In this document: in pieces, positions 2,774 to 15,352 of the stretch | Layout: every line of letters begins with the position of its first letter | Numbering within the stretch: the first letter of the stretch is position 1 | Made by a program: the position numbers and the translations under genes | Notes under the pieces: model-generated | The model's database searches: none | Told to the model about the DNA's origin: nothing | What the model saw: only the letters and a program-made list of their open reading frames with translations | From: Candidatus Rokuibacteriota bacterium | Lineage (GTDB): Bacteria > Methylomirabilota > Methylomirabilia > Rokubacteriales > CSP1-6 | Reading direction: 5' to 3' | DNA: 64,000 bases | NCBI GenBank assembly: GCA_030647435.1 | Contig: JAUSJX010000155.1 | Coordinates: forward strand, 1 to 64,000

Positions 2774-3466
2774 CTATCGAGGCAGGTGGCGGCTGCGCGG
2801 ACCTCCGGGCCCTACGTGACCGCCGGGCCGCCCATCGCCTCCCGGACGGTCCTCGCCGTCCGGACGCGGTTGGCCGGGGCCCGGCTGGCGCTGACGGTAC
2901 TGCTCGCGGGCCTGTTGGCGCTGCTCGGGTGTCATCTGGCGCCAGCGTTCCGCATTCCGCTCAATGGGCTGGCGCTGCTCGGGCGGCATCTGGCGCCAGC
3001 GCTCCGCATTCCGCTCAATGCGCTGACGCTGCTCGGGCGGCAGCCTCTGGAAGCGCTCGTGCGCCGCCTCGAGCTGGCGCCTCCGGTCCTCCGGCAGCGA
3101 TTGCCAGCGGCGGAAGTCCTCCGTGACGCGAGCCCGGTCCGCCGGCGACATGTTGCGCAGCCGCTGCTGATTCTGCCGGGCGGTCTGTCGCTCCTCAGGC
3201 GAAAGGCTCTGCCAGTGGCGGTAGTTCTCTATCGCTCCCTGCCGCTGCTCGGGCGTCATCTCCTTCCACTTCTGGAGATTGCGCTCAGCCTGCGCGCGCT
3301 CTTCGGGCGACAGGCGCTCGAGCCCGCGGACGGGAGAATTGCCGGGCTGGGCCGGCGCTGTCGAGGGAGGTGAAGCGGGCGCCTGAGCCCGAGCGACCGT
3401 CGGGACGGCCAGACAGGCCGCCAGCGCCAGGGCAGGAAGCCAACCGTACGAGCGATCCGTCAGCAT
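2774..3466 (-). CDS. Secreted DUF3106-type repeat protein
   Basis: A 230-residue protein with an N-terminal signal peptide (LALAACLAVPTVARA, cleavage near residue 27). The body consists of about seven degenerate helical repeats of the form RWQSLSPEERQ / RWRQMPPEQRQR, the DUF3106 pattern, followed by a proline/glycine/arginine-rich tail. It is the last gene of an operon with an ECF sigma factor, its putative anti-sigma factor and another small secreted protein, with only one base between it and the preceding stop. The context suggests a periplasmic partner of the sigma/anti-sigma pair, perhaps a sensor or chaperone-like helper; that role is inference. The 3' half carries an internal 54-bp tandem duplication. 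Confidence 0.75.
   Translation of the reverse strand: MLTDRSYGWLPALALAACLAVPTVARAQAPASPPSTAPAQPGNSPVRGLERLSPEERAQAERNLQKWKEMTPEQRQGAIENYRHWQSLSPEERQTARQNQQRLRNMSPADRARVTEDFRRWQSLPEDRRRQLEAAHERFQRLPPEQRQRIERNAERWRQMPPEQRQPIERNAERWRQMTPEQRQQAREQYRQRQPGPGQPRPDGEDRPGGDGRPGGHVGPGGPRSRHLPR
2921..3028. repeat. 54-bp tandem duplication inside the DUF3106 gene
   Basis: Two near-identical 54-bp units begin at 2921 and 2975, with the start of a third at 3029. Each encodes 18 residues (the ERNAERWRQMPPEQRQ type unit). The length is a multiple of three, so the frame is kept. This is the youngest-looking duplication in an otherwise diverged protein repeat. Confidence 0.8.
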
Positions 3467-10881: not shown

Positions 10882-11769
10882 ATGCCGGCGCGGCGCGAGT
10901 TCAACCTCCTGGTGGTCCACGGCGACGGGCGACGCATCGCCCGGCTGACCCTTCCGAGGTGGCTGATTCTGACGGTCTTGGCCCTCGTCCTGGCCGTACC
11001 CGCCTCCGTCACCGTCATCTACAAGGACTACCTCACGCTGCGCAGCCAGCGCGCGTCGTTGAACGAGCTCAGTGCGCGCGTCGTGGTGCAGCAGGAGGTG
11101 ATCGACGCCTCGCAGACGAAGATGCGGCAGATCCGCGCCGAGATCGACGGCTGGCGCGAGCTGCACGCCAAGATCTGGGAGCCCTTCGGTCCCGAGGACG
11201 GCGCCAGCAAGCGAAGCGCCGGCATCGGGGGCGGCACGGGCCCGTCGCGCGCCGCCGAGACTCCCGAGCGCGCCGCCATCGGCGACGAGCTCGAGCGCCT
11301 GACGGGCATCGTCAAGGAAGAGGGGGACAACCTCCGCGCCCTCGAGCGCTTCCTCGGCCGCGCCACACGCGTGCTGGCGGCGCTGCCGTCACGGTGGCCC
11401 GTGCGCGGCCCCGTCAACTCGGGTTTTGGCGGCCGCACCTCGCCCTGGTCGGCCAAGTCGGAGTTCCACAGCGGGCTCGACATCGGCGCTCCGATCGGCG
11501 CGCTGGTTAAGTCGCCGGCGCCCGGCACCGTGGTCTTCGCGGGCGTGAATGCCGAATACGGCCAGACGCTGATCATCGAGCACGGCAACGAGACGAAGTC
11601 GCTCTACGGCCACCTCTCCAAGCTCAGCGTCGCCGTGAACCAGAAGGTGCAGCGCGGAGATGTTATCGCGATGACCGGCAATACCGGGCGCTCCTCGGGC
11701 CCGCACCTGCACTACGAGATCCAGGTCAAGGGCCAGTCGGTCAACCCCACCAGCTACCTCTGGGAGTGA
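10882..11769 (+). CDS. M23 family peptidoglycan endopeptidase, membrane-anchored
   Basis: The product is 295 residues. An N-terminal membrane anchor (WLILTVLALVLAVPASVTVIY, about residues 27-47) is followed by a predicted coiled-coil region (about residues 50-100), a low-complexity linker and the LytM/M23 domain from about residue 170. Zinc and catalytic residues are present: H196 and D200 in EFHSGLDIG and the HLH at 275-277 in SSGPHLHYEIQ. The enzyme should cleave peptide cross-links in the periplasm. The bactofilin neighbours suggest that its location or activity is directed by the filament, as in bactofilin-LytM shape systems of other bacteria. Confidence 0.93.
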   Translation: MPARREFNLLVVHGDGRRIARLTLPRWLILTVLALVLAVPASVTVIYKDYLTLRSQRASLNELSARVVVQQEVIDASQTKMRQIRAEIDGWRELHAKIWEPFGPEDGASKRSAGIGGGTGPSRAAETPERAAIGDELERLTGIVKEEGDNLRALERFLGRATRVLAALPSRWPVRGPVNSGFGGRTSPWSAKSEFHSGLDIGAPIGALVKSPAPGTVVFAGVNAEYGQTLIIEHGNETKSLYGHLSKLSVAVNQKVQRGDVIAMTGNTGRSSGPHLHYEIQVKGQSVNPTSYLWE

Positions 11770-12179
11770 TCCGGCCCAGGTTCGTCCTTCTGGGGGCGCT
11801 GCTCGCCCTCGCGGCCGCGGGCCCGGCCGCCGCACAGGCGCTCGACCCCTCCTCGCAGGACGCGCTCAACAAGACGCTCCAGATCCTCCTCGATCCCAAC
11901 GCGCGCGCGGGCGAGCTCGCGAAGAATTCCCAGGGGACCGCGGTAGACCAGCAGGTGCGCGCGCTCGCGGGCTCGGACGCGCTGACGCAGGAGTTCTACG
12001 CGGTGGCCGGCCAGGTCCTGACGGAGCTCGCCCAGAGCACCGGCGGCGACCCGCAGAACATGCTCCAGGCCGTCGAGCGCGCCAAGACCGACCCCGCCGG
12101 CTTCGCCGCCATGCTGAGCCCCGCGACACAACAGCGGCTTCGCGACCTGTCCGTCAAGCTCTCCGACCGAAAGCGCTGA
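11766..12179 (+). CDS. Small secreted hypothetical protein
   Basis: The product is 137 residues. The GTG at 11766 overlaps the stop of the M23 gene (GTGA), indicating translational coupling. A signal peptide is clear (LLGALLALAAAGPAAAQA, cleavage near residue 24). The mature protein is helical and alanine/glutamine-rich with no recognised domain: DPSSQDALNKTLQILLDPNA and QNMLQAVERAKTDPAGFAAM. Its fixed place at the end of the bactofilin-M23 operon suggests a periplasmic helper of the hydrolase, which is inference only. Confidence 0.65.
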   Translation: MIRPRFVLLGALLALAAAGPAAAQALDPSSQDALNKTLQILLDPNARAGELAKNSQGTAVDQQVRALAGSDALTQEFYAVAGQVLTELAQSTGGDPQNMLQAVERAKTDPAGFAAMLSPATQQRLRDLSVKLSDRKR

Positions 12180-12186
12180 GCCGGGA

Positions 12187-12397
12187 GGCGGCTCAAAAAG
12201 GTCCAGATGCGAGGCGGCGCCCCGCTGTTCGAGTTGAGCGACGGCCTGTGCCGTCGCGAGACGAGGGCTGGGTTGATTCCGCACGCGAGGCGTCCGACTG
12301 TCTCAGCCCTCGCCTCGGGGCTCCGCCCCTCAGCTCGAACGGCCACGAGCGTGCGGCCGAGGGCGTCAACGAAGCAGATGGGCCTTTTTCAGCCGCC
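12187..12397. repeat. Palindromic dispersed repeat, copy A (211 bp)
   Basis: Ends in 24-bp imperfect inverted repeats (12187-12210 and 12374-12397, 20 of 24 positions complementary) with the visible core GGCGGCT-AAAAAGG. Inside, further pairs face each other: GTTCGAGTTGAG with CTCAGCTCGAAC, and CGAGGGCTG with CAGCCCTCG, plus small local hairpins such as CGACGGC-CTGT-GCCGTCG and GGGGC-TCC-GCCCC. A second copy lies at 14145-14375 in the same orientation. No transposase frame is visible. It lies between convergent genes and ends two bases before the stop codon of the minus-strand hydrolase. It could be a MITE-like element, a REP-type sequence or a bidirectional terminator. Confidence 0.85.
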
Positions 12398-12399
12398 GA

Positions 12400-13128
12400 T
12401 CAGGAGCTGTGGTTGCGGAGGAAGTTCAGGCAGATCTCGTTGAACGCGGCGGCCTGCTCGATGAAGTGCATGTGGCCCGCGTCCGGGATCTTGGCGAGCT
12501 CTGAGCCCGGGATCAGGGCGTGGAGGTCTTCCGACGCCGACGGGGGCACGAGGATGTCCTCCGTGCCCGTCGTGATCAGGGTCGGCACGCGAAGGGAGGC
12601 CAGCCGGTCGCGCGTGTCGTGGGCGCGGATGGCCTCACCCTGGCGGCTGAGCCCGGTGAGACTCGTGGAGAAGGGGTACTCGAGGGCCCGCAGGATCCAC
12701 GTCTCCACGAAGTCGGGCCGCTCGACGAACGTCTTCCGGCTCAGCAGCCAGGGCAGGGAGAAGTGGGCGAACTCTTCCGCGTCGCCGCGGGCCTTCACGC
12801 GCAGGAAGTTGTCGATGACGAGCCGGCCGTAGCGGTCCACGCCGGAAGTGGTGCAATGGAGCTGGAGCGAGAGGACGCGCTCGGGGTGCCGGAGCGCCAG
12901 CTCCTGGGCGATCATCCCGCCCATCGACGCGCCGCAGATGTGCGCGTTTCGCACGCCGAGCTGGTCCATCAGGCCCACCACGTCGTCGGCCATTCCCGGG
13001 ATCGTGTAGCGCGCATCCGGGGCGTCGCTCTGTCCGGCGCCGCGGTTGTCGAGTGCGATCACGTCGAACTCGGCGGCGAGCGCGGGCACCTGGAAGGCCC
13101 AGGCGGTGTGATCGCCGCCCCAGCCCAT
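12400..13128 (-). CDS. Alpha/beta hydrolase
   Basis: Alpha/beta-hydrolase fold, 242 residues from the first in-frame ATG. The nucleophile elbow is GASMGGMIAQ, the acid is in TGTEDILVPP and the histidine is in DAGHMHFIEQ; the oxyanion region GWGGDHTAW stands at the N-terminus. Homology-like sequence (PKLQVGDVGIFYQRVG) continues about 28 codons upstream in the same frame to the stop codon of the DapA-like gene, without any ATG, GTG or TTG. The true start may therefore be a rare codon, or the first strands were lost. Substrate not predictable. Likely co-transcribed with the DapA-like gene. Confidence 0.8.
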   Translation of the reverse strand: MGWGGDHTAWAFQVPALAAEFDVIALDNRGAGQSDAPDARYTIPGMADDVVGLMDQLGVRNAHICGASMGGMIAQELALRHPERVLSLQLHCTTSGVDRYGRLVIDNFLRVKARGDAEEFAHFSLPWLLSRKTFVERPDFVETWILRALEYPFSTSLTGLSRQGEAIRAHDTRDRLASLRVPTLITTGTEDILVPPSASEDLHALIPGSELAKIPDAGHMHFIEQAAAFNEICLNFLRNHSS

Positions 13129-13212
13129 AAGGAGGACGAGCGACGGCGGGCGTGTCGGCCCGACGCGCTGGTAGAAGATCCCGACGTCACCGACCTGGAG
13201 CTTTGGGATGGC

Positions 13213-14109
13213 TCAGGCTCCGACGGCGCGGAGGATCTCGCCGAGCTCGTCCAGTGTGCCCGCGTCCAGGGCCGGCGCCGGCGGGCGGACGCGCGCCGCG
13301 TCGATCCAGCCGCGGCGGCGGAGGATCTCCTTCCTGATGCCGACGGCCGTGCCGGGCGTCGAGCCCGGCTGGCTCTCGTAGCGGATGAGCGGCAGCCAGC
13401 GGTAGAAGAGAGCCCGGGCCTCGTCGCGGCGGCCGGCGACGAAGTGATCGCGGATTGCCTTGAGCGCCTCCGGGTAGGGGAAGCCGGTCATGGCGCCGTC
13501 GGCCCCGCGCGATAGCTCCTCGAAGAAGTAGACGCCCCCGAGCCCCCCGAATATCGCCACGCGCCGCGAGAGCAGCTCGCGCAGCCGCGTGATCTTGGGC
13601 AAGGTCGGCGCCTCCTCGAGCTTGACCGCCTCGATCGCGGGGATTTCTTCGCACAGGCGGGCCATGAAAGCCGCTGGCATCGTCACCTGGGTCGTGACGG
13701 GCTCGTCCTGGAGCACGAGCGGGACTGCGGCCGCGTCCGCCACCGTCCGGTAGTACTCGGCCACCGCGTCGAGGTTCTTGAGGCCCGCCGGCGGGGCGAC
13801 CATGAGCCCGTCGGCCCCGTGCTCCTGGGCCATGCGGGTGAAGGACGTCGCGAGATGCGTGCCCGAGGCGGAGACGCCCACCACGACCGGCACGCGGCCG
13901 CGCACCTCCTTGACGACGCCCTCGACCACGCGCCGCCGCTCCTCATCGGTGAGGCGGTGGGCCTCGCCGGCGATACCGAGCAGGGTGACGCCGGTGATGC
14001 CCGTGGCGAGGGCGGCTTCGACGAGACGCGGCAGTCCTCTAGCGTCGAGCTCGCCGCCGTCCGTGAACGGCGTCGCCATGATATGGAAGACGCCCGACCA
14101 CTCGATCAT
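13213..14109 (-). CDS. DapA-family aldolase/lyase of unknown substrate
   Basis: The product is 298 residues with the DHDPS/N-acetylneuraminate lyase TIM-barrel layout. The Schiff-base lysine is kept in IEAVKLEEAP. Two other hallmarks of true dihydrodipicolinate synthase are changed: the GTTGE loop reads GIAGE, and the tyrosine of the YNxP motif is replaced by glutamine (LVLQDEP). It is therefore unlikely to be the lysine-pathway enzyme and more likely a catabolic keto-acid lyase or hydratase. The ATG at 14107-14109 was chosen because upstream sequence belongs to the palindromic repeat. A hydrolase follows directly in the same direction. Confidence 0.8.
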   Translation of the reverse strand: MIEWSGVFHIMATPFTDGGELDARGLPRLVEAALATGITGVTLLGIAGEAHRLTDEERRRVVEGVVKEVRGRVPVVVGVSASGTHLATSFTRMAQEHGADGLMVAPPAGLKNLDAVAEYYRTVADAAAVPLVLQDEPVTTQVTMPAAFMARLCEEIPAIEAVKLEEAPTLPKITRLRELLSRRVAIFGGLGGVYFFEELSRGADGAMTGFPYPEALKAIRDHFVAGRRDEARALFYRWLPLIRYESQPGSTPGTAVGIRKEILRRRGWIDAARVRPPAPALDAGTLDELGEILRAVGA

Positions 14110-14144
14110 CGGGAGGCCAGACTCCTCATTGTCGACAGTTGGCA

Positions 14145-14375
14145 GGCGGCTCAAAAAGGTCCAGATGCGAGGCGGCACCCCGCTGTTCGAGTTGAGCGAC
14201 GGCCTGTGCCGTCGCGAGACGAGGGCTGGGTTGATTCCGCACGCGAGGCGTACGAACCAACATCTCAGCCCTCGCCTCGGGGCTCCGCCCCTCAGCTCGA
14301 ACGGCCACGAGCGTGCGGCCGAGGGCGCCCCAACAGTCTTTGCTAAATGGCGCAGATGGGCCTTTTTCAGCCGCC
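14145..14375. repeat. Palindromic dispersed repeat, copy B (231 bp)
   Basis: Second copy of the element at 12187-12397, same orientation, nearly identical over both ends and the central arms. It differs by two small insertions, about 4 bp in the centre and about 16 bp before the right end. Its terminal inverted repeats are 14145-14168 and 14352-14375. As in copy A, the right end stops two bases before the stop codon of a minus-strand gene (here oppF). No clear target-site duplication is visible on either side. Confidence 0.85.
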
Positions 14376-14377
14376 TG

Positions 14378-15352
14378 TTACGCGCGGACCTGGCACGCGA
14401 CCCAGTGACCGGGCGAGATCTGCTTCAGCACCTGCTCGTGCTCGGAGCAGGCCGGCACACGGACGGGGCAGCGCGTGTGGAAGCGGCAGCCGGAAGGAGG
14501 ATTGATCGGGCTCGGTACGTCGCCTTCGAGCAGGATGCGCTTGCGCTTGACCGCCGGATCGGGGATCGGCACCGCGGAGAGGAGCGCCTCGGTGTAGGGG
14601 TGCTTCGGGTTGTTGTACAGCTCCTTGGCCGGCGCGATCTCGACGATCTTGCCGAGGTACATGACGGCCACGCGCGTCGAGATGTGCTCGACCACGGAGA
14701 GGTCATGGGCGATGAAGAGGTACGTCAGGTTGAACTGCTTTTGGAGATCCTCGAGCAGGTTGATGACCTGCGCCTGGATCGACACGTCGAGCGCCGAGAC
14801 CGGCTCGTCCGCGACGATGAGCTTGGGGCTGACGGCCAGGGCCCGGGCGATGCCGATGCGTTGGCGCTGGCCGCCCGAGAACTCGTGCGGGTAGCGGCGC
14901 AGGTGGTCGGAGCTCAAACCGACCGTCTCGAGGAGGTGGATGACGCGCTCCTCCCGCTCCTTACGCGTCTTGGCGAGCTTGTGGATCACGATCGCCTCGC
15001 CGACGATCGACCCCACCGTCATGCGCGGATTGAGCGAGGCGTACGGGTCCTGGAAGATGATCTGCATGTCGCGCCGCAGATGGCGGAGCGACCGCTTGTC
15101 GAGCGCCGTGACGTTCTGTCCCTCGAAGGTGACCTCGCCCGACGTGGGCTCGATCAGGCGCAGGATGCAGCGCCCCGTCGTGGACTTGCCGCAGCCGGAC
15201 TCGCCCACGAGGCCCAGCGTCTCGCCCTTCTGGATCGTGAACGAGATGTCGTCCACGGCGTGGACGCGCGCGACCTCGCGGGAGAAGAGCCCGCCGCGGA
15301 TCGGGAAGTACTTCTTGAGGTTCTTGACCTCGAGGAGCGGAGTCTCAGCCAT
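14378..15352 (-). CDS. Oligopeptide/dipeptide ABC transporter ATP-binding protein (OppF/DppF type)
   Basis: ATPase subunit energising uptake of peptides or similar solutes. The product is 324 residues with Walker [10 protein letters not shown] at 50-58, the Q-loop [11 protein letters not shown], signature [10 protein letters not shown], Walker [13 protein letters not shown] and the C-terminal oligopeptide-family extension with the four-cysteine cluster ([15 protein letters not shown]). It is paired with an OppD-type ATPase 9 bases upstream. No permease or binding protein lies next to the pair, so the membrane partners must be encoded elsewhere. Confidence 0.93.

Follow-up and report, generated by a model that had tools for sequence, protein, structure and literature searches.

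Gene-end hairpin repeats of a Candidatus Rokuibacteriota genome as a probable family of non-autonomous transposable elements

The window (the whole 64-kb stretch of DNA that was analysed) contains two near-identical palindromic elements, copies A and B. Each consists of a scaffold with paired terminal arms that carries internal modules. Genes were called with a codon-usage caller trained on the window, and the module boundaries were drawn by eye by comparison with 121-bp copies of the same element. The features are as follows.

11766..12179, plus strand: small protein gene (137 aa), with its TGA stop 7 bp left of copy A
12187..12397, plus strand: copy A, 211 bp, scaffold with modules X and Y, flanked by two convergent genes
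12187..12210, plus strand: left arm of copy A, with the tandem G.A motif CCA-GA-TGC towards its inner end
12223..12278, plus strand: module X of copy A, REP-like, GTTCGAG...CGAGGGCTG, substituting a short stretch of the 121-bp scaffold
12299..12346, plus strand: module Y of copy A, REP-like and complementary to X, substituting the apical loop of the 121-bp scaffold
12374..12397, plus strand: right arm of copy A, GCA-GA-TGG ... CCTTTTT
12400..13128, minus strand: gene right of copy A, with its TGA stop 2 bp from the copy
13213..14109, minus strand: minus-strand gene next downstream of copy B, with its start 35 bp from the copy
14145..14375, plus strand: copy B, 231 bp, scaffold with modules X, Y and Z
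14145..14168, plus strand: left arm of copy B
14181..14236, plus strand: module X of copy B
14261..14308, plus strand: module Y of copy B
14330..14351, plus strand: module Z of copy B, CCAACAGTCTTTGCTAAATGGC, missing from copy A
14352..14375, plus strand: right arm of copy B
14378..15352, minus strand: gene right of copy B, with its TAA stop 2 bp from the copy

From their sequences we take the gene right of copy A to encode an alpha/beta-hydrolase-like protein and the gene right of copy B a peptide ABC-transporter ATP-binding protein. The two copies are 97% identical between 12183-12297 and 14141-14255, and identical between 12301-12365 and 14263-14327 as well as in their 24-nt right ends (12374-12397 and 14352-14375). 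The arms pair (27 nt at 85% in copy B), and both copies fold far better than shuffled sequence, with z-scores of -7.2 and -7.4 for A and B and 0 of 200 dinucleotide shuffles as good. The coordinates, near identity and 24-bp terminal inverted ends described in the initial annotation are thus confirmed, and there is, as it had also stated, no transposase frame inside either copy. Searched with no mismatches, the arm pattern occurs in the 64-kb window solely at the four ends of A and B; with up to two mismatches there are five matches, against a mean of 0.29 and a maximum of 2 in shuffles.

Copies A and B belong to a large dispersed family. The home genome comprises 5.79 Mb in 176 contigs; copy B (231 bp) used as a BLAST query gives 64 matches in it, and 107 ends (51+56) match a degenerate arm pattern vs 3 (2+1) for a reversed control pattern. 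The 68 raw hits include duplicates and nested pairs, and 58 distinct elements were extracted from the fetched home-genome loci. The basic unit is a hairpin of 119-122 bp, most commonly 121 bp (20 of the 68 raw hits), and 28 of the 58 distinct elements measure 117-123 bp. A full copy is an imperfect palindrome of ~121 nt with covarying 24-nt terminal inverted repeats at both ends, often accompanied by an extra partial end copy ~20 bp outside the left arm. There are ~60 copies; they have no coding capacity, and most of the complete ones span 119-231 bp. The longer copies have modules inserted at set positions (X ~+51, Y ~+40 and Z ~+17 bp); the combinations seen are X, Y, Z, X+Y, Y+Z and X+Y+Z. 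The larger size of A and B comes from these optional modules, of which X and Y are REP-like and mutually complementary, on a unit of ~121 bp. What had been read as internal GTTCGAG/CGAGGGCTG arms are accordingly two optional modules present in A and B and missing from other copies. The two copies do differ in length as noted earlier, and modules describe this better than spacer indels of 4 and 16 bp; the 16 bp correspond to an optional module close to the right arm that B has and A lacks. A single recent segmental duplication giving rise to A and B, without further copies or covariation, is ruled out by the unrelated flanks of the two copies, the ~60 further copies and the covarying pairs described below.

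The home genome also contains a sister repeat family with other ends (GTACTGGGCCAA...) and a similar apex motif (GAGGCGTACGT...GTACGTTGAGCG). It carries the same REP-like modules as the family of A and B, inserted in both orientations, and was seen at L064 (about 2955-3220), L066, L068, L069, L070 and L071. Two further loci, L065 and L067 (around 2960-3150), hold clusters of REP-like modules without the element scaffold, and L085 has three tandem copies at 1501-1911 with a period of ~146 bp.

An alignment of the family shows covariation. Among 28 basic copies, double changes that keep the pair are found at 16 of 38 predicted pairs, and in an unfitted MAFFT alignment of 90 sequences at 23 of 32 pairs, kinship being ignored in both counts. 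The 90 sequences consist of 58 from the home phylum and 32 from Nitrospirae, Deltaproteobacteria and one unclassified bacterial MAG. The suggestion that selection acts on the structure is supported by these pair-keeping changes. The identity of the arm bases varies freely as pairs (e.g. CG/TA/GC at one position), which fits a requirement for pairing rather than for a fixed protein consensus. The most conserved part is instead the unpaired or G.A-paired core. GA faces GA inside the arms in 60 of the 90 sequences; next to the apex, GA faces GA in 57 and GC in 27.

The two strands are not equivalent. In 23 well-aligned pairs, chosen after the alignment was seen and excluding middle-stem columns that are unreliable across phyla, there are 38 G.U vs 10 A.C pairs, with nine columns leaning to G.U and none to A.C (kinship ignored). 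Over all 32 pairs the counts are 225 G.U and 49 A.C, or 59 vs 49 without the columns in which G.U is the commonest pair. With RNA energies the left-to-right strand is the more stable in 58/58 sequences of the home phylum and 32/32 from other phyla, and with DNA energies in 58/58 and 26/32, again ignoring kinship and with the strand of the other-phyla sequences assigned by model R1, which itself contains G.U pairs. Among the home-genome copies, modules included, the same strand is the more stable in 49/58. Probably, then, one strand is under pairing constraint, as RNA or as single-stranded DNA. The Rfam covariance models give no match at gathering score in the window and four weak hits (E at least 2.4) in 12100-14450. 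A known RNA family was rejected, there being no Rfam match.

Matches to model R1 are found in 28 of 60 relatives, home genome included, and in 43 of 95 genomes of the home phylum, where at most 37 candidates were scored per genome and the counts are lower bounds. The relatives in Nitrospirae and Deltaproteobacteria were obtained with a pattern that is one G short for the home genus and misses the home clade. Of the nine genomes behind these other-phyla loci, Nitrospirae MAGs included, eight have R1 matches, as do 64 of 198 genomes from the phylum of one Deltaproteobacteria MAG (18 candidates scored in each). The same pattern also matched loci of 96 nt in Ramlibacter and one locus in Anaerolineaceae. 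A Chloroflexota control sample gave R1 matches in 4 of 199 genomes; seven Chloroflexota loci (L348-L354) share the inner motif of the family and may, judging from that motif, be true distant relatives, so the control is not strictly negative. As judged from the aligned sequences, the predicted fold is conserved between distantly related bacterial groups. A 121-nt query had no match in plasmid and phage collections, nor did two exact patterns in IMG/VR viral contigs, and spread by phage, plasmid or virus was set aside for lack of a match with these queries.

The position of the element is strongly biased. The 58 home copies fall between convergent genes (29) or tandem genes (27), with two at locus edges and none inside a gene or between divergent genes. 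The background, from the window and 40 fetched loci with element-bearing gaps included, is 31 convergent, 209 tandem and 32 divergent gaps. A stop codon lies within 30 bp of 54 of the 58 copies. Of 47 stops on the right, 25 are separated from the element by exactly 2 bp. The arm provides stops in the remaining frames too, and in six of the 47 cases its own TGA and TAA (-9 and -12) are used. Left-side stops peak at 21 bp (9/40) and 2 bp (6/40); the 21-bp class has the extra partial end copy outside the left arm, a layout that recurs in similar form in several Nitrospirae and Deltaproteobacteria copies. Simple ORF calling, with some short neighbours, places 26 other-phyla loci between convergent (5), tandem (16) or divergent (2) genes, with three unassigned; in five (L259, L262, L268, L274 and L277) the right end is 1-2 bp away from a stop codon.

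The bases flanking the copies point to a preferred target. YTAR occurs at right offset +3 in 26 of the 58 home copies and in at most four at any other offset scanned, and on the left at -25 in ten copies and -6 in six. Both sides have it at the expected offsets in 7 of 58, and A and B have none. Most target duplications are therefore decayed, one-sided or absent. Orthologous slots were sought in four congeners, using gene ends joined into one query and a stretch of the window, and 44 of the 58 were alignable in at least one. In congener G001, 39 aligned slots comprise 24 that are empty (a gap of 60 bp or less that lacks the arm motif, a definition under which remnants count as empty), nine with an element in the same orientation, four in the opposite orientation and two others. 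Clean empty sites carry CTAG at L005 (G001), L010 (G001 and G003), L018 (G001) and L033 (G004), TTAG at L007 (G001) and GTAG at L020 (G001). At these approximately six sites the NTAG appears on both sides after insertion, and at L005, L007 and L018, where the neighbours are convergent, the four bases serve both stop codons. Two nearly clean absent sites (L027 in G001 and L056 in G003) do not fit an NTAG duplication, the other absent sites are messier, and L002 and L019 in G001 are apparent remnants that keep the outermost arm bases only. The slot of copy B lacks the element in G001 and holds the 121-bp form in G003, while that of copy A in G001 holds a basic copy in the opposite orientation. 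Insertions are thus polymorphic between congeners. The earlier observation that there is no clear target duplication holds for A and B and not for the family, in which an NTAG target is seen at other copies and empty sites.

CTAG itself is scarce in the window, where 25 are seen vs 65 expected from trinucleotides; 13 of these touch a predicted stop codon, seven are in coding sequence and five elsewhere. Since CTAG is rare and often at stops, an element that seeks CTAG and is purged from coding sequence would collect at stop codons. Slots aligned to L007 and L024 (L173, L198, L199 and L208) contain another palindromic repeat (CCCTCACCCTGCCCTCTCCCC...) in several relatives where the home genome has an element of the A/B family, as if hairpin families swap at gene ends.

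The gene-end position, together with the strong fold and the presence of other palindromic repeats in the same slots of relatives, would also be expected of a conserved host regulatory or terminator RNA, selected at gene ends for termination or for protection of mRNA 3' ends and spread by homologous exchange. At least four A and at least four T flank the stem on both sides in 31 of the 32 sequences from other phyla and in 28 of the 58 from the home genome, giving an A-tract/GC stem/T-tract layout. However, the T-tract is broken in 26 of the 58 home copies, and the 24 of 39 slots that are empty in G001 are difficult to reconcile with a conserved host RNA. Of the 27 copies between tandem genes, 10 would be transcribed from the upstream gene as the well-folding strand and 17 as its complement. 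Service to the upstream mRNA therefore does not explain the conserved strand asymmetry and is probably not what maintains the fold. Such an RNA is therefore considered unlikely. A plain structured RNA locus, raised in the initial annotation, is likewise disfavoured because insertions are polymorphic and the elements point either way with respect to the gene upstream.

A classical MITE, derived from an insertion sequence by deletion and dependent on a DDE transposase that recognises its terminal repeats in double-stranded form, would account for the terminal inverted repeats, the four-base flanking repeats and the lack of coding capacity; covariation of the arms would then stem from quasi-palindrome correction. 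This origin appears doubtful, and somewhat more so than a host RNA. The arm bases vary freely as pairs with no kept consensus, and arm-to-arm correction should erase the conserved GA/GA sites and the G.U pairs, both of which persist in most of the 90 sequences. Moreover, neither a transposase with ends matching the arms nor an autonomous parent with these ends was seen among ~100 of the 107 home-genome ends listed and the fetched loci. At L041 one pair of ends is separated by 2.1 kb, apparently because unrelated DNA has inserted into an element. This insert of ~2 kb (L041 2966-5129, G000:C76:59465-61628) has an edge that begins GTGCG on the minus strand, presumably resembling the 5' end of a group II intron.

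Mobilisation by a RAYT (Y1 transposase), as for REP/BIME-type elements, would fit the strand-specific imperfect hairpin, the NTAG at its foot, the REP-like modules inside it and the TAG given to flanking genes, as described for GTAG REPs (PMC3733652), but it is very improbable, given that the only Y1 gene of the home genome is flanked by a different repeat, that 121 bp far exceeds the REP length of 20-40 bp stated in the same paper, and that Y1 presence does not track copy number across 60 genomes (no Y1 match occurs in G001, G002, G003, G025, G026 and G033, each with about 30-60 copies, and no copy in G039-G042, which have 3-8 Y1 matches). A RAYT partner is thereby ruled out for the home genome and as a general companion. 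The Y1 gene lies at L031 (966-1956) with GGGGTCAGGTCTTG repeats on its flanks, and at L036, from 2935, a GGGGTCAGGTCTTG-like repeat pair lies inside an element of the A/B family. The earlier proposal of a MITE or REP-like element mobilised in trans is upheld in that the elements are MITE- or REP-like, dispersed and without a transposase of their own; a RAYT as the mobiliser is not supported. The ~121-bp unit with its optional modules, the siting at gene ends and stop codons, the occurrence in further phyla and the strand specificity of the fold go beyond what that proposal anticipated.

Based on these observations, copies A and B are most likely members of a family of non-autonomous transposable hairpins. 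The element would insert at a four-base NTAG site, mostly CTAG, which is rare in this GC-rich genome and often part of a stop codon. The four bases would afterwards stand on both sides, so that the upstream gene keeps its stop and convergent genes sharing the four bases both keep theirs; insertions at gene ends would be tolerated because the stop codons survive. The bias towards gene ends would then reflect target choice together with purifying selection. Mobilisation may depend on a trans-acting recombinase that recognises one folded strand, as single-stranded DNA or as RNA, and an enzyme that handles a folded strand is preferred because the arm bases covary as pairs and keep no fixed consensus. 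The A-tract/GC stem/T-tract ends could function as a two-way transcription terminator, although the T-tract is broken in 26 of the 58 home copies and a terminator scan came out near chance, with three hits in 3.2 kb vs 1.2 expected, one in copy B and none in A.

A more far-reaching proposal, which we regard as possible and offer tentatively, is that these elements form their own class of transposable hairpins in the home phylum, Nitrospirae and Deltaproteobacteria. They would move as a folded single strand, with conserved internal G.A-paired sites serving as recognition points for a recombinase of neither the RAYT nor the DDE kind, and would seed portable gene ends with stops in three frames and a two-way terminator.

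Among known systems the closest in description are the Yersinia palindromic sequences (YPAL), which insert close behind stop codons. The two families are alike in their stem-loop, filled and empty sites and stop-codon adjacency (within 30 bp in 54/58 copies here), and apparently in having target duplications. Likened by description, they differ in that YPAL duplications are 3-26 bp long and those of the A/B family four bases, and in that the A/B family belongs to other phyla. YPAL (or RU-2) is a stem-loop of ~168 bp with target-site duplications of 3-26 bp, sites that are filled in one species and empty in another, and targets in or beside dyad symmetry, reported from Yersinia and Erwinia (PMC2229807). 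The anatomy and habits of the A/B family match bacterial MITEs of the YPAL type (PMC2229807, PMC2267715, PMC2847712). ERIC, RUP and Correia/NEMIS are described as small A+T-rich repeats with terminal inverted repeats, mostly TA at the termini and stable stem-loops (PMC2229807). In contrast, the A/B family is GC-rich, has NTAG flanks and a strand-specific fold. The termini of GTAG-tagged REPs and REPINs often supply a TAG stop to the flanking gene (PMC3733652); the A/B family differs from them in having no RAYT link, a length three to six times greater and pairing over the whole element. Chunjie, a MITE of Geobacter uraniireducens, is described as multi-copy, mostly intergenic and 178-235 bp long, and the pneumococcal SPRITE as a dispersed element resembling a Rho-independent terminator (PMC10969869). 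Compared by description, Chunjie is like the A/B family in being multi-copy, mostly intergenic and from a host of a related group, and may or may not be akin to it, while SPRITE resembles it in description alone, as dispersed and terminator-like. A search of the open-access literature found no description of the A/B family. We presume that similar repeats occur in Geobacter-like genomes.

The length of ~121 nt and the core motifs are kept between phyla while the arms are free as pairs, which suggests a mobility mechanism that reads the shape of one strand. The enzyme, if found, would add to the small number of known systems that work on folded single strands. A covariance model would serve annotators for a repeat that has no Rfam match. 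Landing at an NTAG stop codon may illustrate how a mobile element settles in compact genomes without breaking genes, and would offer a way for gene ends to acquire or exchange hairpins.
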